Assembly: GCA_020431405.1 (NCBI GenBank)
Contig: JAGQIK010000101.1
Coordinates: 1-64,000, forward strand
Reading direction: 5' to 3'
Source: Myxococcales bacterium
GTDB taxonomy: Bacteria; Myxococcota_A; Polyangia; GCA-2747355
Length of the DNA stretch: 64,000 bases
In this document: one piece after another, positions 32,276-42,598 of the stretch
How the letters are laid out: each line of letters starts with the position of its first letter
Numbering within the stretch: the stretch's first letter is position 1
The notes under the pieces: generated by a model
Told to the model about the DNA's origin: nothing
Databases searched by the model: none
Seen by the model: only the letters and a program-made list of their open reading frames with translations
Translations under genes and position numbers: made by a program

Positions 32276-33631
<1,356 letters not shown>

Positions 33632-33890: not shown

Positions 33891-34592
33891 ATGCCCACAC
33901 GCCACGCCGTGCTCGCGGCGGCCCTGGTCGCCTGCCTCGCGCCGCCATCGCCCGCCCTCGCCGCGCCTGCGCCGACGATCATCGACCGACCGATCCGCTT
34001 CGACCAAGAGCGCATCGACCTCACCAAGCGCTACATCCGCCGCCACTACGGGCTCAAGGTCAAGGACATCAAGATCGTTCCGCGCGCCGTGGTGGTGCAC
34101 TGGACCGCCTCGGGCACCACGCGCGCCGGCTGGGTCACGTTCAACCGCGTGCGCATGCGCGCGGCGCGCAAGCACCTGCTGCGCGGCGGGCTCGTCAACG
34201 TCTCTGCGCACTTTCTGGTGGCGCGCGACGGGCGCATCTACCGGCTGATGCCCGAGACGTGGATGGCTCGTCACTGCATCGGCCTCAACTACGACGCCAT
34301 CGGCATCGAGAACGTCGGCGGGGGCAAGAAATGGCCGCTCACGCCGGCGCAGCTGCGCGCCAACATCGCCCTCGTGCGCTACCTGGTCGCCAAGCACAAG
34401 GGCATCCGCTATCTGCTGGGGCACATGGAGTGGAAGCGTTTCGAGAAGGCGCCCTTTTTTCGCGAGCTCGATCCGACCTACCGCAACGCCAAGCCCGACC
34501 CCGGCCGCCGCTTCATGCGCGGGCTGCGGCGCGCTCTGTCCGACCTCAAGCTCCTGGGTCGCTACACGACGCCGCGCAAGGGCGGTCGCTAG
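33891..34592 (+). CDS. Exported N-acetylmuramoyl-L-alanine amidase-like protein
   Basis: A 233-aa protein of the amidase_2/PGRP fold, predicted to cut the bond between MurNAc and the stem peptide in the periplasm. The signal peptide ends near A-L-A-A-P-A. Zinc-site regions visible are V-V-V-H-W-T-A-S-G (first His) and the late D-P-T-Y-R-N-A-K-P-D-P-G (third ligand region). G-H-M-E-W lies near the C-terminus. The family V-S-A-H-F-L-V-A-R-D-G and N-Y-D-A-I-G-I-E-N-V-G strands are intact. TATAGT at 33880-33885 sits just 5 bp before the ATG, hinting at a leaderless mRNA, but there is no good -35. It is divergent from the FHA gene. Confidence 0.88.
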   Translation: MPTRHAVLAAALVACLAPPSPALAAPAPTIIDRPIRFDQERIDLTKRYIRRHYGLKVKDIKIVPRAVVVHWTASGTTRAGWVTFNRVRMRAARKHLLRGGLVNVSAHFLVARDGRIYRLMPETWMARHCIGLNYDAIGIENVGGGKKWPLTPAQLRANIALVRYLVAKHKGIRYLLGHMEWKRFEKAPFFRELDPTYRNAKPDPGRRFMRGLRRALSDLKLLGRYTTPRKGGR

Positions 34593-34903: not shown

Positions 34904-36283
34904 ATGCTACGTGGTCTGACTTTGGTTACCAGCCTCGCCGCTATGACGATTGCCATCGTCATCGGTTGCTCGGGGGATGTCGCCCCATTCAACCCCCCGC
35001 CCGGCAGCGGAACCGTTGACCCAAATCAGCCCTGTACGGATCTCGCGACGTGCTGCAAGCCCGAGGAACGCGTCTGCGTGGGCGACCCCGACCGTGGCGT
35101 CGTCTGCAGCTGCAAGAACCTCTGGGACTGCAACGCCAACAAGACCAAGTGTCAGCAGCCCCTGACGCCTCCGCCCGGCGGCGGCGGCTGGAACTGCAGC
35201 TCGTGGAACGAGTTCGACGGCGTGACCTGCGAGAAGCCCGGCACCAAGAGCGACGTGCCCGATGGCGGCTCGCTGTGGCGCTGCCAGTACGTCGAAGAGC
35301 TCAAGAAGATCGTCTGCAAAGAGCAAACACCGTCGGCTCCAACGCCCCCCGGCTCGGGCAACTGGAATTGTAAGCCCTCGGTCACCGAAGGCGTGCAGAA
35401 GCTCGTTTGCGAGCGTCCCGAGACCAACCCGCCGAAGCCGCCCACCGGCGGTGGCGAGTGGGACTGCAACGCGCAGCTAACCGACTGCAAAAAGAAGGAC
35501 GGCGACAAGGGCATCCCCGAGGGCGGCAGCAACTGGAAGTGCCACGAGGAGACGATCAACGGCAAGGTCTACATCACGTGCGTCGGCGACTCCAACGGCA
35601 ACCCCGGCGGCGGCGGCGGCTGGAACTGCAAGCAGCTGCCCAACGAGCAGACGAAGTGGATCTGCCAGCGTCCCAAGGACAACAAGGACACGCCTCCCGG
35701 CGGTGGCAACTGGTCCTGTGTGTCGGGCAGCGAGTTCGGCGGCACCGTGTGCAAGAAGGTCGACCAGCCCCCGACGCCGCCCACGCCGTTCCCGAAGCCC
35801 GGCGAAGTCTGCGTGCCCGGTCAGATGCGTTGGTGTGACGGCCTCAAGTTCTGCGGCTGGGGCACCATCACCTGTAAGCCGGACGGCACGTGGCCGACGC
35901 GCACCGTTGGCGGCAAGGTCCTGCTGGACTGCGTCGAGCGCGCCGATGGCAAGCGTCCCGACACGGCCTGCGCCTGCTACCACTTCTACTTCAACCCGAA
36001 GTGCTGCGAGCGCCCCGACTGCATGATCCCCGACGGCAAGGACGGCCAGATCTGCGCGCCGAGCAAGGGCGGCACCTGTGACTACTGCAACCCGCAGAAG
36101 CCCGAGTGCAAGGGCGGCGGCATCTGCGCCGTGTCCAACTCGATGGAGACGTTCTGCACGCAGCCGTGCGCGGCCAACAAGTCCTGCCCGACCGGCATGA
36201 TCTGCATGCCCGTCAAGAACCAGGGCACCACGTCCAACCAGTGCATCCCGTCGGACTTCAGCTGCTACAACGGCAACCCCTAG
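34904..36283 (+). CDS. Cys-rich lipoprotein with seven Trp-Cys repeats
   Basis: A 459-aa precursor with signal peptide and lipobox V-I-G-C (Cys22). Residues about 89-286 contain seven degenerate ~24-33-aa repeats of the form P-x-G-G/S-x-x-W-x-C-x(6-14)-C: G-G-W-N-C, S-L-W-R-C, G-N-W-N-C, G-E-W-D-C, S-N-W-K-C, G-G-W-N-C and G-N-W-S-C. The last is followed by a different Cys-rich region (G-E-V-C-V-P-G-Q-M-R-W-C-D-G and several C-x(2-6)-C pairs). Two Cys per repeat suggests one disulphide each. I do not recognise the repeat. Cysteines, the lipobox and the signal argue for a stable surface lipoprotein. Confidence 0.8.
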   Translation: MLRGLTLVTSLAAMTIAIVIGCSGDVAPFNPPPGSGTVDPNQPCTDLATCCKPEERVCVGDPDRGVVCSCKNLWDCNANKTKCQQPLTPPPGGGGWNCSSWNEFDGVTCEKPGTKSDVPDGGSLWRCQYVEELKKIVCKEQTPSAPTPPGSGNWNCKPSVTEGVQKLVCERPETNPPKPPTGGGEWDCNAQLTDCKKKDGDKGIPEGGSNWKCHEETINGKVYITCVGDSNGNPGGGGGWNCKQLPNEQTKWICQRPKDNKDTPPGGGNWSCVSGSEFGGTVCKKVDQPPTPPTPFPKPGEVCVPGQMRWCDGLKFCGWGTITCKPDGTWPTRTVGGKVLLDCVERADGKRPDTACACYHFYFNPKCCERPDCMIPDGKDGQICAPSKGGTCDYCNPQKPECKGGGICAVSNSMETFCTQPCAANKSCPTGMICMPVKNQGTTSNQCIPSDFSCYNGNP

Positions 36284-36400: not shown

Positions 36401-37516
36401 ATGCGCGCCCGGGTCGCAGGCGTGGTTTGCCTTGCGCTTATCTCGATGACCGCCGCTGATGCGTCGGCCTACTGCCTTCACAAGTACACCGGCTTCAAGT
36501 CGTTCGCGCGCTGGACGACGATCCCGGTCACCTACCGCGTCTCGTCGAGCCTCACGGACACGGCGCTGCTCGCCGCCATCGACGCCGCCTTCAAGACCTG
36601 GGAGAACGTTCCCTGCTCGCGGCTGGCGTTCACCAAAGGCGCGAGCTTCGACGTCAACACGACGCAGTTCACGTCGCCGCCAGGCAACGAGATCTACGTC
36701 TTCTGGTACCCGCAGGCGCTGTCCTCGAAGTTTCCGACGCAGCCGCAGTTCGCCGCGTACTCGTTTACCGGACACAACAACAACGGCGGCCTGTCCTTCG
36801 GCTCGATCGCGCTCAACGGCTTCCAGTACAACTGGAACGCCACTGGTGGCAGCGCGCAGTCGCCGGGCATCCTCGACATGCAGAACGAGGTCATCTACCT
36901 CGTGGGCACGGTCATCGGCCTCACCGACTCGAAGAACTCCGCGGCGGCGATGAACCCCAACATCAAGTTCGGCGACACGTCGCGCCACACGCTGCACCAA
37001 GACGACATCGACGCGGTCACCTGGCTCTACGCCAAGGACACCACGTGCATGGCGCCGGCGCCCGGCACGGACGGCTGCTCGAGCGGCAGCCCCGTCACGC
37101 CCCCTGTGGGCGACGCCGGCATCAACCCCAACCCCAACCAGGACGCCGGCACGATCCCGCCGCCGACGGAGCAGGGCGTGCAGATCGGCGACGGTGGCAC
37201 CACCAACCCTGGCAGCGACGGCGGCACCACCAACCCCGGCAGCGACGGTGGGACGACCAATCCTGGCAGCGACGGCGGCGCCAGCGGCGGCGACGGCAGC
37301 AGCGGCAAGAGCTGCACGTCGAGCGCTCAATGCGGCGACAACGCCATCTGCGACGTCAACGGCCAGTGCGTGTCGGTGCCCGGCAACAACCCCGGCGGCG
37401 GCGACGACGGCGGCTGCGGCTGCAAGACAGCAGGGCTGCCGGTCGGCGCGGCGCCTCTCGGGCTTCTGCTGCTCGGTCTGCTGCTGTGTGGCCGTTTTCT
37501 ACGCCGGCGGCCGTAG
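36401..37516 (+). CDS. Matrixin-like exported protein lacking the zinc site, MYXO-CTERM-like tail
   Basis: A 371-aa precursor. The signal peptide is followed by a domain with the layout of matrixin metalloproteases: P-V-T-Y-R-V, A-A-I-D-A-A-F-K-T-W, a D-M-Q-N helix, A-A-M-N-P, and finally H-Q-D-D-I-D-A-V-T-W-L-Y. Where the HExxHxxGxxH zinc motif should be it reads Y-L-V-G-T-V-I-G-L-T-D (residues 166-176). All three ligands and the catalytic Glu are replaced while the structural Gly173 is kept. A Gly/Asp/Thr linker with three T-N-P-G-S-D-G-G-T repeats and a Cys-rich patch follows. The tail C-G-C, hydrophobic segment, R-R-R-P is MYXO-CTERM-like. A catalytically dead binding protein is inferred. 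Confidence 0.75.
   Translation: MRARVAGVVCLALISMTAADASAYCLHKYTGFKSFARWTTIPVTYRVSSSLTDTALLAAIDAAFKTWENVPCSRLAFTKGASFDVNTTQFTSPPGNEIYVFWYPQALSSKFPTQPQFAAYSFTGHNNNGGLSFGSIALNGFQYNWNATGGSAQSPGILDMQNEVIYLVGTVIGLTDSKNSAAAMNPNIKFGDTSRHTLHQDDIDAVTWLYAKDTTCMAPAPGTDGCSSGSPVTPPVGDAGINPNPNQDAGTIPPPTEQGVQIGDGGTTNPGSDGGTTNPGSDGGTTNPGSDGGASGGDGSSGKSCTSSAQCGDNAICDVNGQCVSVPGNNPGGGDDGGCGCKTAGLPVGAAPLGLLLLGLLLCGRFLRRRP
37202..37282 (+). repeat. 27-bp tandem repeat (three copies)
   Basis: Three near-identical 27-bp units encode T-N-P-G-S-D-G-G-T/A in the stalk of the first matrixin-like protein. Third-position changes dominate, so selection on the peptide is likely. Confidence 0.9.
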
Positions 37517-37559
37517 CGTGGTATTTTCTGAGCTCGAGCCCAGATAGGAGACTAGTCAA

Positions 37560-38576
37560 ATGAGGCTTCATAAACGTGCAGGCCTGGCGCTTCTGGCGAT
37601 GACGCTGATGTACAGCAGCCCAGCGCTGGCGCAGCTTTGTTATCAGGACTCAGACGAGAACAACCCCGGCAACGGTGTGCCGGTGGCGTGGGAGAACACC
37701 GCCACCACGGAGATCGGCTACAAGGTCTACGTGCCGACCTCGCCCAACTTGCCGGCCAAGGCGATGGTCATCGCCGCCATCGACGCCGCGTTCAAGGCCT
37801 ACACCGACATCCCGTGCTCGACGATCAAGTTCAAGAACGCCGGCGAGCTGACCACGCTGGTGACCGAGAACTCGGGCTTCATCACGGTCTACTTCGGCAA
37901 GGACAGCAGCGAGTGGATCTACGGCAACTCGGCCTACAACTACCAGCTGCGCTTCAAGTCGCTGGCCAAAGGCGACATCGACTGGGGCACCATCGGCATG
38001 AACGCCGCCACGCAGCAGTGGGCTATCGGCGCCGAAGCCAACAAGATCGACGTCCAGACGGCCGTCATGCAGATGATCCCAGGCGTCATCGGCTACTACG
38101 TCGGCACTGACCCCGTCGGTGGCTCCGTCGACATCAAGTACAACACGGTCAACCACACCGTCAGCGCTGACCAGACCACGGGCGCGCAGTACACCTATCA
38201 CGACAGCGCCAACAGCAGCTGCACGCAGCCGGCCAAGCCCAACCACTGCCCGACGGCGGCCAACCCTGGCGACGCCGGCCCTGGCAGCGATGCTGACGGC
38301 ACGGTCAATCCCGGCACGGATGGCACGGTCAACCCCGGCACCGACGGCACGGTCAACCCCGGCACCGACGGCACGGTCAACCCTGGCACCGACGGCACGG
38401 TCAACCCCGGCACCGACGGCGGCACGAGCGGCGGCGACGGCGGCGGCGGAAGCGGCGACGACGACGGCTGCTGCCGCGTCAGCCACGCGCGCTCGGCGAA
38501 CATTCCGTTCTTCACGCTGCTCGGCCTGGCGCTCTTCATCGGCCTGACGCGTCGCCGCTGGCGCAAGCGCAAGTAG
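37560..38576 (+). CDS. Second matrixin-like exported protein lacking the zinc site
   Basis: A 338-aa paralogue of the preceding gene. It shares the signal peptide, A-A-I-D-A-A-F-K-A-Y, I-P-C-S and the helix before the active site. The zinc-motif position reads Q-M-I-P-G-V-I-G-Y-Y-V (residues 171-181), again without any His or Glu. The stalk has five G-T-V-N-P-G-T-D repeats. The C-terminus G-C-C, hydrophobic stretch, then R-R-R-W-R-K-R-K resembles a MYXO-CTERM surface-anchoring signal. AGGAG precedes the ATG by 9 nt. It lies 43 bp after its paralogue, which implies tandem duplication. Confidence 0.75.
   Translation: MRLHKRAGLALLAMTLMYSSPALAQLCYQDSDENNPGNGVPVAWENTATTEIGYKVYVPTSPNLPAKAMVIAAIDAAFKAYTDIPCSTIKFKNAGELTTLVTENSGFITVYFGKDSSEWIYGNSAYNYQLRFKSLAKGDIDWGTIGMNAATQQWAIGAEANKIDVQTAVMQMIPGVIGYYVGTDPVGGSVDIKYNTVNHTVSADQTTGAQYTYHDSANSSCTQPAKPNHCPTAANPGDAGPGSDADGTVNPGTDGTVNPGTDGTVNPGTDGTVNPGTDGTVNPGTDGGTSGGDGGGGSGDDDGCCRVSHARSANIPFFTLLGLALFIGLTRRRWRKRK
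38298..38417 (+). repeat. 24-bp tandem repeat (five copies)
   Basis: Five 24-bp units encode G-T-V-N-P-G-T-D in the stalk of the second matrixin-like protein. The near-perfect identity at DNA level suggests recent expansion. Confidence 0.92.
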
Positions 38577-38613: not shown

Positions 38614-38670
38614 CGGCGAGCAACGCGACGCTACGCGAACGGATCTCGCAGAGAGATCCGTTGCTCGCCG
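38614..38670. terminator. Competing hairpins between convergent genes
   Basis: CGGCGAGCAACG (38614-38625) pairs with CGTTGCTCGCCG (38659-38670), 12 bp perfect. Inside, AACGGATCTC (38638-38647) pairs with GAGATCCGTT (38653-38662), 10 bp perfect. The two stems share 38659-38662, so they partly exclude each other. The site overlaps the last codons of the minus-strand gene. It is probably a bidirectional terminator without a T tract. Confidence 0.5.
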
Positions 38671-40202
38671 CGCCCCTTGACCAACTCGAGCCGAATCACG
38701 CCTTCGTCGTCGTCCGCGTAGAGGTCTACGCGCTCGATGGCGATCCAGCTCAGCCGCGGGCCGTGGTCGGCGGCGATGTCTGCCATGGCGCGCACGAAGC
38801 CGCGCGCTACGGCCACCGCGGCGCGCGGCAGCGCGAGCGCACGCACGAGCTCGGCGGCGGCCGCGGCCTCGCCGTCGCGATCGGGCAGGGCGATTGGTGC
38901 CGCCCAGATCGGTCGCTCGCTCGCGCCCGGTGCCGCGTGGGCGCGAAGCTGAAGCAGCGCGTCCTCGTCGTCGAACAGCATCGTGCAGCTGAAGCCGCGC
39001 GCGCGCAGCTGCTGGCGCGAGACCAGCACCCCGGCGATGCCGTGCTCGCTGCGCGAGACCACGTCGCGGTAGACCTGGCGCGCCGCCGAGGCGGTCATGG
39101 CGGTCAGCTCGCCCGCGCGTTCCTCATCGGGAAGGTCAGCGCCCACCGGTCGCAGCAGCACGGGCAGCCCCAGCTCGGCCGCCGCGGCGCCGGCGGCGCT
39201 CGCCGACCGCACGAGGCGCTCCTCGGGCGCTGCGACGCCGTAGCAGCGCACGAGCTCTTTGAGCTGCATCTCCGAGAGCTGCGCGCGCCATCCGTCGAGC
39301 AGGCGTGTGGACCGCGCGGTGGCGCTCGCATCGCTGACGCGCCGTCGCGCGCGTCGCTGCGCGCGCGGCGAGATCGACGCGGCGACGGCGGCTGCACGCA
39401 GCGGCTCCGGGGGGACGGCGCCGAGATTGACGTGCGTCGGGCCGTCTGCGAGCCCGAGCTCGGGGGCGACCAACACGAGCAGCGCTTCACGTCCGGCCGA
39501 CGCCAGCTCGCTGACCATCAGCGCGGCGGCCGCTGGATCGGCGAGCTCGCTGCGCGGCTCCACGCGCACGCCGCCCACGCGCGTGCCGCCCTTGCCGACG
39601 AGCTCGAGCCCGCCGGCGACCGCGGCGTCGCGCATCAGACGCGCCACGTCGCGGCTCACGCAGAGCGCGTCGACGTCGCGCGATCCGCGCGGCAGCAGGC
39701 CGCCGAGCGCGAGCGCGCGCGCGTCGACAGACACCGCGGGTACGTCGCAGGCGACGATGCCGTGCGCGCGCGCCACCCCGAGTGTGGAGAGCTCCTCGAC
39801 GGCGGCACGCGCGTCGATGATGCGCCGCGCGTTGCCCACACAAAGCAGCGTCGCGCCAGGTGTCGAGCGCGCCATGGTGCGCAACGTCGAGAGCTTGGGT
39901 GAGGCGTGCAGCGCGACGATCAGGTTGGCGGCGGCCGGCGAGTCGTGCAGCGCTAGCAGCGCGGCTTCGATGCTCGATGGCGTCACGATGGCGACGGCAT
40001 CGATCTCCAGCTCGGCCGCGCGCGCGGCGCTGACCACGCGGCGCGCCAGCGAGTACCCGTCGCCGAGCACCACCGTGTTCGTCGCCACGGCCGCGGGGCG
40101 CGTCGCCCGTTGGGGCGGCTTTTCCGGCCGCGGAGATTCGAGCTCGCAGTCGATGCCCGCGCCCGCGAGGCGCTCGCGCAGCGCCCGGAGCGCAGCCGTC
40201 AC
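38631..40202 (-). CDS. ATP-grasp / NDP-forming acyl-CoA-synthetase-like protein, degenerate
   Basis: A 523-aa protein whose first half resembles the CoA-ligase domains of ADP-forming acyl-CoA synthetases (Y-S-L-A-R-R-V-V-S-A-A-R-A, then D-S-P-A-A-A-N-L-I-V-A-L). Its second half, from about 340, resembles their ATP-grasp domain (L-S-E-M-Q-L-K-E-L-V-R-C-Y-G-V). Where those enzymes keep a metal-binding D-I-N-P-L near the end, this has I-E-R-V-D-L, and no obvious phospho-His segment is seen, so synthetase activity is doubtful. The GTG start overlaps the EtfB-like stop (GTGA), so it is translated with the Etf-like pair. Confidence 0.65.
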   Translation of the reverse strand: MTAALRALRERLAGAGIDCELESPRPEKPPQRATRPAAVATNTVVLGDGYSLARRVVSAARAAELEIDAVAIVTPSSIEAALLALHDSPAAANLIVALHASPKLSTLRTMARSTPGATLLCVGNARRIIDARAAVEELSTLGVARAHGIVACDVPAVSVDARALALGGLLPRGSRDVDALCVSRDVARLMRDAAVAGGLELVGKGGTRVGGVRVEPRSELADPAAAALMVSELASAGREALLVLVAPELGLADGPTHVNLGAVPPEPLRAAAVAASISPRAQRRARRRVSDASATARSTRLLDGWRAQLSEMQLKELVRCYGVAAPEERLVRSASAAGAAAAELGLPVLLRPVGADLPDEERAGELTAMTASAARQVYRDVVSRSEHGIAGVLVSRQQLRARGFSCTMLFDDEDALLQLRAHAAPGASERPIWAAPIALPDRDGEAAAAAELVRALALPRAAVAVARGFVRAMADIAADHGPRLSWIAIERVDLYADDDEGVIRLELVKGRGEQRISLRDPFA

Positions 40203-41374
40203 GAGGCCGGGCCGAGCACGCCGAGGGCGCGGAGCTTGCCGATCAGCGCCGGCACGTCGGCGACGATCTCGGCGCGGCGCTCGATGCGCGACAGCGACGG
40301 GCGCACGTCGGCGATCGCCGAAGCGAGCGTCTTGGGCGCGCGCAGCGTCGTCGACGTCGCGCTGCCATCCGCGTCGGCGTCGCTGAGGTCGAGAAGCTCG
40401 ACGCTGGGCTCCGCCTGCGCCACAGCGGCCGCCGCTTCGGTCGTCAGCGCCTCGTAGGGCCTGCATCCGAGCGCGGTCAGCACCAGGGGCGAGGGCAACG
40501 TCACGCGCAGCAGCCGCGCGCCGTGCTGCACGGATACGGCCAGAGGCGGCCCAGCCGTGGTGTGCTGGCGCAGCGACGCCGTGTCGGGCGGTAGCGTGGG
40601 CATGTTCATCGACGCAACCGTCTTGCCCGAAGCGAGCGCCTGCTCGCCCGTGTCGACGTGGGCGAGCCCGCCCGCGCCGTCGTCGGCCACCGTGTCGGTA
40701 GGCGACAAAGCGTCGCCGTCTCCGCCGCCGTCATCCTCGTCGTCGTCGTCGTCGTGACCGCCGACGGCGCGGTGCTCGCCCGATCGGGAGGCGCGCAGCG
40801 CGATGTTGTCGGCCACGGTGGGCTCTTCGTCGCCGAAGCCGCCGTCGTCGTCACTGCTGTCGATGGTGTCCTGGCGTGCTTCGAAGGCGCGGCCGTGCTC
40901 GAGCGCTGCGTTCTCGTCGTCGGTCTGCACCGTCTCGAGCGGCAGGTCGGCGGCAGGCGCGTGCTCCACGTCGATCACGCAGCGAAGGTGCGGCACGCCG
41001 AGGCGATGGGCGACCACCGGCCCCGTCATGCCGCTCGACCAGTTCGCGGAGCGGTCTCCCGCGAGCACGACGTCGAAGCCTATCTCCTCGAGCGCCTGCG
41101 CCAGCAGCGCGCTGACCGAGTCGAGGTTGTCCCAGTCGACGGCCGTCTCGGTGACGCGCACGCAGCGCGACGCGCCGAGCGCGCGTGCGTGCGCGAAGAC
41201 GCGCTCGTCCTCGCGAGGGCCGGCGGTGAGGGCCGTCACCGAGCCTTCGTCGCCTGCGAGCTTGCTCGCCAGCGCCAGCGCGGCGCGCTCGCAGGGGGGC
41301 AGCCCGTCGAGCTTTCGCGGCTCGTCATCGGCGGGGGCGCCACGCGGCGCCTGGATCAGCACGACGACTCGCAT
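40199..41374 (-). CDS. EtfB-like protein with acidic insert
   Basis: A 391-aa protein with the N-terminal ETF-beta fold: R-V-V-V-L-I-Q-A-P, a helix C-E-R-A-A-L-A-L-A, T-A-L-T-A-G-P, A-R-A-L-G-A-S-R, then F-D-V-V-L-A-G-D-R and M-T-G-P-V-V-A-H-R-L-G-V-P. About 110 residues of Asp/Gly-rich low complexity are inserted mid-protein. The usual late R-Y-P-S/K-A-K-K segment is replaced by C-R-P-Y-E-A-L. Normal ETF passes electrons from dehydrogenases to the quinone pool; whether this one binds AMP or FAD is uncertain. It lies between the EtfA-like and ATP-grasp genes. Confidence 0.7.
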   Translation of the reverse strand: MRVVVLIQAPRGAPADDEPRKLDGLPPCERAALALASKLAGDEGSVTALTAGPREDERVFAHARALGASRCVRVTETAVDWDNLDSVSALLAQALEEIGFDVVLAGDRSANWSSGMTGPVVAHRLGVPHLRCVIDVEHAPAADLPLETVQTDDENAALEHGRAFEARQDTIDSSDDDGGFGDEEPTVADNIALRASRSGEHRAVGGHDDDDDEDDGGGDGDALSPTDTVADDGAGGLAHVDTGEQALASGKTVASMNMPTLPPDTASLRQHTTAGPPLAVSVQHGARLLRVTLPSPLVLTALGCRPYEALTTEAAAAVAQAEPSVELLDLSDADADGSATSTTLRAPKTLASAIADVRPSLSRIERRAEIVADVPALIGKLRALGVLGPAS

Positions 41375-42598
41375 CTAGTCCCCCTCGGCCGCCGCGCTCG
41401 ATGGCGCGTCGGGCGCCGCGGTGGCGAGCAGCTCGTCGATGACCGCGCGCGGGTCGGAGACGATGCCGACGTGCGCGACCTCGAAGATCGGAGCGTCCTC
41501 GTCGCTGTTGACGGCGACGATGCGCGTGTGCGGCGCCAGCGCTGCCAGATGCTCCTCGGACCCCGCGATGCCGAAGGCGAGATACACGTCCGCATCGACG
41601 CACAGGCCGCCGAAGCCGACGCACCGCTCGCGTGGGGCGTGACCCGCGGCGCAGGCCTCCTCGCTGGCCACGACCGGCGCGCCGAGCGCGGCGCCGAGCT
41701 GCTCGAGGCGCGCGAAGGCGTCGGCGTCGAGCCCCGTTCCGCCGCCGAGCACGGTCTTGGCGAGCACCAGCGAGCCGAGCTCGGGCGCCTCGACCTCGCT
41801 CACCGACAGCGGCACGGCGCTCTCGCTGGGCGCCTGCACCACCACTACCTCCGCCTCGTCGGCGCCGAGCGTTTGGACCTCGCCGCTTCCGTGCAGCGTG
41901 AGCACCAGCGGCTGCGGACGCGCGAGCAGCTCGCTGAGAAGAAAGCGGCGCCGAAAGACGTCGTGCTCGATGACGAAGTCGCGCGGTGCGTCGATAGTGG
42001 CCGTGGTGCTGCGGCGCAGCGGCTGCGTCGTCGTGTCTGAGGGCGGTGCATCGGCGCCGTTGCCCGACGCGCCGGCGCCGGGCGCGCGGTGCAGGCTCGT
42101 CTCGGCGTCGTCATCACCCGCGTCGGCCGCTGGTGCTGGCGGCGGCGGCGCGCTCGCCTGCGACGCGTCACACAGCTCGGTCTCGCCGTAGCGCGCGCGC
42201 AGCTTGAACGCGACGCGCGGGCCGAGCTCGCGGCCGGCGGGTTGCGGGAACAACACCAGCTGCGGCGGGAAGCGATCGCACGCGGCGAAGGTCGCCTCGG
42301 CGTGCGTGGCGTAGAGCGCCGGCGGCGCCAGCGACGGGCTGGTCGTCAGCACGACCTTGTCCGCGCCATGCCGCGAGAGCACCGCGATGATGTCGTCCTC
42401 GCCGTAGCAGGGCGGGGCCACGCAGGGCAGCATCGCGTAGAGCGTGGCGCCGAGCTGCGAGGCGACACGCCGCCCAACCCACAACGCGTGCAACGAAGCT
42501 TCGCTGGCGCGCGCGCGCACGATGCGCTCCTCGCCATCGCCTCCGTCCGGCGCCGTGTCGGCTTGCTCCAGCTCGATGAAGACGAGGATGTTTGCCAC
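41375..42598 (-). CDS. EtfA-like protein with degenerate FAD site
   Basis: A 407-aa protein. The C-terminal ~120 residues align by eye with the FAD-binding domain of ETF-alpha: L-G-G-G-T-G-L, A-L-G-A-P-V-V-A-S, D-V-Y-L-A-F-G-I-A-G, I-V-A-V-N-S-D-E-D-A-P-I-F-E-V-A-H-V-G-I-V. Signature FAD contacts are altered: the S-R motif reads S-E, G-Q-T-G reads G-F-G-G, and S-G-A-I-Q-H reads A-G-S-E-E-H. The N-terminal domain keeps the ETF-like start I-L-V-F-I-E-L, and a Pro/Ala/Asp-rich insert lies at about 145-195. The start is GTG. Its promoter lies within a 14-bp repeat array. Confidence 0.68.
   Translation of the reverse strand: MANILVFIELEQADTAPDGGDGEERIVRARASEASLHALWVGRRVASQLGATLYAMLPCVAPPCYGEDDIIAVLSRHGADKVVLTTSPSLAPPALYATHAEATFAACDRFPPQLVLFPQPAGRELGPRVAFKLRARYGETELCDASQASAPPPPAPAADAGDDDAETSLHRAPGAGASGNGADAPPSDTTTQPLRRSTTATIDAPRDFVIEHDVFRRRFLLSELLARPQPLVLTLHGSGEVQTLGADEAEVVVVQAPSESAVPLSVSEVEAPELGSLVLAKTVLGGGTGLDADAFARLEQLGAALGAPVVASEEACAAGHAPRERCVGFGGLCVDADVYLAFGIAGSEEHLAALAPHTRIVAVNSDEDAPIFEVAHVGIVSDPRAVIDELLATAAPDAPSSAAAEGD

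Follow-up and report, generated by a model that had tools for sequence, protein, structure and literature searches.

Tandem zinc-less matrixin-like proteins beside a WxC-repeat lipoprotein gene in a Myxococcales bacterium: candidate envelope-anchored pseudoproteases

Inactivated matrixins carrying a MYXO-CTERM anchor are already recognised. Judging from its name and description, the NCBIfam model NF041938 (RSIGE_not_HEIGH) covers matrixin-like proteins that have lost the zinc motif and bear such an anchor, traits that recur in the two adjacent proteins analysed here, P1 and P2; the RSIGE motif of the model name nevertheless differs from the motifs of P1 and P2. NF041938 is the closest named precedent, but P1 and P2 lie outside it: neither protein matched it at E up to 10, and their zinc-less relatives reached 21-46 bits (cut-off 375). 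When 178 genomes were searched with this model at E up to 1e-20 no match was obtained; the controls were equally silent and absence is thus not established. The nearest named family to P1 by score is NF041905, the MXAN_2677/MXAN_2678 myxosortase-dependent metalloprotease (49.5 bits, below the cut-off of 250); it is a metalloprotease by name, whereas P1 has no zinc ligands, and P2 gave no match to it. The catalytic domains of karilysin and of the matrix metalloproteinases (MMPs), all matrixins (M10A), resemble P1 and P2 in fold by model comparison, but their zinc site is absent in both proteins and their Met-turn is absent in P2.

A working analogy is provided by the animal pseudopeptidases ADAM11, ADAM22 and ADAM23, in which a zinc-less metzincin domain takes part in a surface complex, as described in a review of pseudoenzymes among the metallopeptidases published in 2024 (PMC11266112). 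These belong to another family and no homology with P1 and P2 is claimed beyond the metzincin fold. By the terms searched, that review yielded no passage on matrixin pseudopeptidases, and none of the matches in the open-licence literature on matrixin pseudoproteases, inactivated metalloproteases and MYXO-CTERM was recognised by its title as treating the P1/P2 family. Regarding the anchor, TraA of Myxococcus xanthus is sorted to the cell surface through its MYXO-CTERM by a myxosortase (PMC11980579).

P1 and P2 are encoded in a 64,000-nucleotide stretch of a Myxococcales contig (GenBank JAGQIK010000101.1), hereafter the window. The relevant features are as follows.

32276..33631, minus strand: FHA/sigma-54 activator (PF00158 231 bits, PF00498 60.4 bits), neighbour
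33891..34592, plus strand: Amidase_2 protein (PF01510 79.8 bits), neighbour
34904..36283, plus strand: WxC-repeat lipoprotein (CysLP), proposed partner, next to zinc-less matrixins across genomes
36401..37516, plus strand: P1, zinc-less matrixin, 371 aa
36401..36469, plus strand: P1 Sec-type signal peptide, residues 1-23, judged by eye from the sequence
36509..37033, plus strand: P1 matrixin domain, residues 37-211 (PF00413, 33.3 bits)
36896..36928, plus strand: P1 segment YLVGTVIGLTD (residues 166-176) at the place of the lost zinc site, from sequence and alignments
37188..37283, plus strand: P1 stalk repeat, 27-bp unit, 3.6 copies
37406..37510, plus strand: P1 MYXO-CTERM-like tail, residues 336-370 (TIGR03901 16.4 bits, cut-off 20)
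37560..38576, plus strand: P2, divergent zinc-less matrixin, 338 aa
37560..37631, plus strand: P2 Sec-type signal peptide, residues 1-24, judged by eye from the sequence
38070..38102, plus strand: P2 segment QMIPGVIGYYV (residues 171-181) at the place of the lost zinc site, from sequence and alignments
38295..38420, plus strand: P2 stalk repeat, 24-bp unit, 5.2 copies
38463..38558, plus strand: P2 MYXO-CTERM-like tail, residues 302-333 (TIGR03901 14.5 bits, cut-off 20)
38631-42598, minus strand: ATP-grasp and electron-transfer flavoprotein (ETF) genes, downstream

The activator and amidase genes are also present at the corresponding locus of G003, a genome from another family of the same order, where the counterpart of the activator is matched at E 8.3e-249 and relatives of the downstream ETF genes lie near the cluster. 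These shared surroundings suggest an inherited neighbourhood and by themselves no functional link. A scan for sigma-70-like promoters found none. P1 starts 117 bases downstream of the lipoprotein ORF, on the same strand, and is separated from P2 by 43 bases.

Lost zinc site, fold and tails of P1 and P2

A sequence-only reading of this DNA had proposed that both genes encode matrixin-fold proteins in which every zinc ligand is lost and the structural glycine stays. Both ORFs were indeed found where that reading had placed them, and the alignments bear out the loss. The place of HExxHxxGxxH is occupied in P1 by Y166-L167-V-G-T170-V-I-G173-L-T-D176 and in P2 by Q171-M172-I-P-G175-V-I-G178-Y-Y-V181, the glycine alone being kept. 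The methionine of the Met-turn is present in P1 (M184) and in five of the six aligned P1-type sequences; it is gone from all three P2-type sequences. Hydrolysis of some substrate through another metal site, or through none, might be considered, given that P1 has an aspartate at the third ligand place and that remnants of the motif persist in relatives, namely the glutamate in G449, G235 and G258 and the first-ligand histidine in the P2 copy of G002 (a genome of the window's own family), a copy that retains no other zinc ligand. No member, however, keeps two of the three histidines, no histidine is invariant across the P1-type alignment and the glutamate has disappeared from both P1 and P2, so residual activity is regarded as very improbable.

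P1 is recognised as a matrixin by Pfam (PF00413, above the curated cut-off of 24 bits), and P2 matched no Pfam family. Domain models were computed from six-row alignments of the window proteins and related loci. Among solved structures, the P1 model (pLDDT 67.9, pTM 0.76) came closest to the bacterial MMP-like enzyme karilysin (Foldseek E 1.6e-5; VIA Z 12.8, rmsd 3.2 over 146 residues). The P2 model, of low confidence (pLDDT 62.5, pTM 0.69), also had MMPs as its top matches, more weakly (Foldseek E 0.025; VIA Z 9.3, rmsd 4.0 over 130 residues). Both models place a helix across the lost motif, corresponding to the one on which matrixins bear HExxH. Two of the six alignment rows are active matrixins which may pull the P2 model, and the sequence evidence consequently matters for the fold of this protein. 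P2 is 26% identical to P1 over the compared domain; a pairwise alignment gave 29% over 308 columns (E 8e-17) with the linker repeats counted in, and the profile-profile comparison of both proteins gave E 4.5e-28. The P2 profile retrieves HExxH-bearing matrixins from genomes other than the window's own (G042, E 6.8e-13), and its comparison with the profile of the active family gives E 4.5e-7 (probability 92.6). Against solved structures, phmmer with P2 returned weak chance-like matches alone (best E 0.022) and the P2-type profile nothing at E up to 1. When 18 zinc-less members were combined into one profile, MMP chains were matched with E down to 4.8e-15. P2 is tied to the matrixins by profile and model comparison. 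The predicted structures support retention of the metzincin/matrixin fold in P1 and, at lower confidence, in P2; a structural comparison of this kind was among the checks that the earlier reading had suggested.

The C-termini of both proteins display a Cys motif, a hydrophobic stretch and an Arg cluster, and the surface-type tails foreseen by the sequence-only reading are MYXO-CTERM-like by sequence even though TIGR03901 scores them below its cut-off. The same model exceeds that cut-off in relatives (G003 P1-type protein, 23.8 bits; G253, 23.5 bits; own-genome paralogue C536, 20.3 bits). The best match to the MrtX myxosortase (NF040593) in the window's own genome reached 164 bits at G000:C502 (cut-off 180). 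By analogy with TraA, sorting of the MYXO-CTERM by a myxosortase would apply to P1 and P2 as well. The repeat stalks that had been described are real. The P1 stalk includes a small Cys module (window positions 37304-37372) that matches EB and DUF7107 weakly and recurs in the stalks of other zinc-less members.

Extent and ancestry of the zinc-less family

Relatives were scored per genome on the 5 best candidates in the first search and on the 8-9 best in later ones, and the zinc motif was read at the retrieved loci, which represent part of the 219 and 144 genomes with a match. With ORFs whose matched matrixin stretch was shorter than 110 residues left out of the count, 126 matrixin ORFs were classified: 21 zinc-less, from 15 genomes, and 105 of the HExxH type. 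The motif is absent from all six P1-type and three P2-type sequences and from 12 further relatives. In the window's own genome, 23 matches to PF00413 were obtained at E up to 10, of which 19 (6 + 13) keep HExxH and four do not, the latter being P1 and its three closest paralogues (C129, C237 and C536). P2, invisible to Pfam, is the fifth zinc-less member; the count of active versus dead paralogues called for by the earlier reading stands at 19 with HExxH and 5 without. This confinement of the loss to P1, its closest paralogues and P2 is more than chance. Relatives were absent from viral contigs, and neither P1 nor P2 was found in G001 (67% complete).

The Pfam matrixin cut-off is exceeded by several zinc-less proteins (P1, C129, the G003 P1-type protein, G253, G186 and G449) in spite of the lost zinc site, and automatic annotation may accordingly mislabel them as metalloproteases.

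The P1-P2 tandem recurs in G003, as well as in G002 (GenBank JAFCZD010000014.1), and the motif is gone in every copy. Outside the order, each unit holds a single pseudomatrixin gene, both in six genomes of the class (G319, G478, G585, G449, G489 and G450) and in five genomes (G253, G186, G235, G285 and G258) of f54, a family assigned to a different class of the same phylum. In a tree of 18 zinc-less and 58 other sequences built with the motif columns removed, a single, weakly supported branch (72/21) separates the zinc-less rows from the others, and the 15 zinc-less rows of the class group at 99/92. A second tree, of 21 zinc-less rows with 56 of the 105 others, has an unresolved backbone and requires two changes; a topology placing all zinc-less rows in one clade was not rejected (p-AU 0.325), and the members may stem from one loss or from more. 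In this second tree the P1-type (6 rows), P2-type (3), G319-type (4) and f54 (5) groups are each supported by at least 99/99. P1, C129, C237, C536 and the P1 copies of G002 and G003 form one group in both trees (100/100 with 18 rows, 100/99 with 21). The loss of the zinc site predates the window's lineage and probably also the split between P1 and P2. Two parallel events at one locus are thus not required, and this modifies the argument of the sequence-only reading, for which the same loss in two adjacent paralogues was itself the indication of a pseudoprotease role. Nor does the missing motif reflect recent decay confined to this tandem.

The fast divergence of P2 from P1 could be taken as a sign of decaying genes. 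Since the ORFs are intact, their order is kept in G003 and G002 and core residues are conserved, decay is the least credible of the explanations considered and appears extremely unlikely. The dN/dS ratio was dropped as a test of decay: with GC3 near 0.9, dS is saturated or depressed and the ratio is not decisive (dN was well below dS in the G002 pairs only).

Two rearranged or isolated members deserve mention. The P2 copy of G002 (L010:393-1454, minus strand, the same record as L052:1337-2398, both from a single assembly) lacks the first beta-strand segment (about 38 residues) that normally follows the signal peptide; a matching segment sits after the matrixin domain in the manner of a circular permutation, and an assembly error is possible. 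A zinc-less matrixin-like protein of G508 (L203:4536-5909, minus strand) has no lipoprotein nearby, carries a weakly DUF7107-like Cys module and perhaps represents an independent loss.

The WxC-repeat lipoprotein as candidate partner

The gene upstream of P1, overlooked by the sequence-only reading, whose overall interpretation is in other respects partly supported, encodes a protein of 459 aa with a lipobox-like VIGC near the N-terminus, 44 cysteines, nine WxC motifs mostly spaced by 22-32 residues and a Cys-rich C-terminal domain. The window copy matched no Pfam or NCBIfam model, and its profile retrieved nothing among solved structures at E up to 1. This gene or a relative of it adjoins a zinc-less matrixin in all but one (G508) of the 15 genomes; of these 14, nine belong to the class, the window's own included, and five to f54. 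In G002, two zinc-less ORFs stand at a contig end behind a lipoprotein fragment. The lipoprotein relatives of f54 match at E 1e-9 to 5e-21 and, in G253, the sole f54 case tested, the WxC repeat part is fused to other domains. The lipoprotein gene comes first in the class, the pseudomatrixin gene comes first in G186, G235, G285 and G258, and both are divergent in G253.

A lipoprotein gene lies within 1.5 kb of 15 of the 21 zinc-less ORFs versus 2 of the 105 HExxH ORFs, most active loci having been retrieved with about 1.5 kb of flank, beyond which a lipoprotein would go unseen. The adjacency count is inflated by five of the 21 zinc-less ORFs, which owe their inclusion to the lipoprotein search itself and later formed part of the alignment used to search the class for zinc-less members. 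Prior to the lipoprotein search, four zinc-less proteins were known among 29 loci of other genomes (G319, G253, G186 and G235) and all adjoin a lipoprotein gene. The lipoprotein profile matches 35 of the 317 genomes of the class at E up to 1e-5. Nine hold a full-length copy (E < 1e-20) and the remaining 26 short segments, nearly all covering the last ~75 residues. The core zinc-less clade (15 matches of at least 185 bits) occurs in these same nine genomes; the next match below it, at 127 bits, is an HExxH protein.

P1 and P2 are best explained, with somewhat better than even confidence, as old envelope-anchored pseudoproteases whose matrixin domain binds protein, the WxC lipoprotein being the likeliest constant partner in a surface complex. 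Both proteins would be exported by Sec and anchored to the cell envelope by the MYXO-CTERM-type tail on its flexible stalk. The matrixin domain, deprived of its zinc site, would serve as a protein-binding domain, and the lipoprotein, as first candidate ligand on account of its constancy as a neighbour, would form the complex with it. In this order, one pseudomatrixin gene would have been duplicated into P1 and P2, maybe giving two subunits. A fold that is kept while zinc is lost, together with a preserved secretion signal, stalk and anchor, fits such a binding role and suggests that a protease fold was converted into a binding module. The old cleft may accommodate the partner, or the complex may in turn bind something outside. 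A more specific and tentative version, rather unlikely as it stands, is a two-part surface system of Myxococcota type in which the degenerate cleft acts as a permanent clamp on the WxC repeats of the cognate lipoprotein, the clamp having been doubled into P1 and P2.

Some pseudoproteases act as regulators or decoys of active enzymes. P1, P2 and their relatives could likewise regulate an active matrixin paralogue or shield substrates from it, as decoy, inhibitor or co-factor. The two HExxH ORFs found near a lipoprotein gene are divergent, direct neighbours of the lipoprotein/pseudomatrixin pair in G319 (L055:10634-11512) and G585 (L136:6502-7338), and a third lies about 2.5 kb away from the pair in G478 (L134:1538-2404). 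These three group in the trees with C422 of the window's own genome and C5 of G003, and the HExxH matrixin and pseudomatrixin of each genome are possibly an enzyme-pseudoenzyme pair. The same active subfamily is nevertheless present in genomes devoid of the pair (G344, 315 bits; G180, 306.7 bits) and weak where the pair exists (G489, 72.9 bits; G450, 124.4; G002, 99.7), and no active matrixin is adjacent in the window, which leaves a regulatory role unlikely. Slightly less likely still is that both proteins serve for generic surface display, as adhesins with an extracellular ligand, the lipoprotein being a mere operon neighbour. Stalks and anchor tails would suit this role, as would the stray pseudomatrixins without a nearby lipoprotein (C129, C237 and C536 in the window's own genome, and G508), which show that a partner gene at the same locus is dispensable; against it stands the close association with one lipoprotein family, seen in two distant groups and with either gene first.

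The family constitutes a tractable case of a bacterial metzincin whose catalysis was lost early while its gene partner stayed constant, through which the function of a dead protease becomes approachable by pull-down. It also offers a first lead on the Cys-rich repeat lipoprotein itself. Copies of the latter without an adjoining matrixin occur in the window's own genome (C380, C68, C702 and C27; L125-L128) and in G003 and G002, and the lipoprotein family extends beyond its association with pseudomatrixins.
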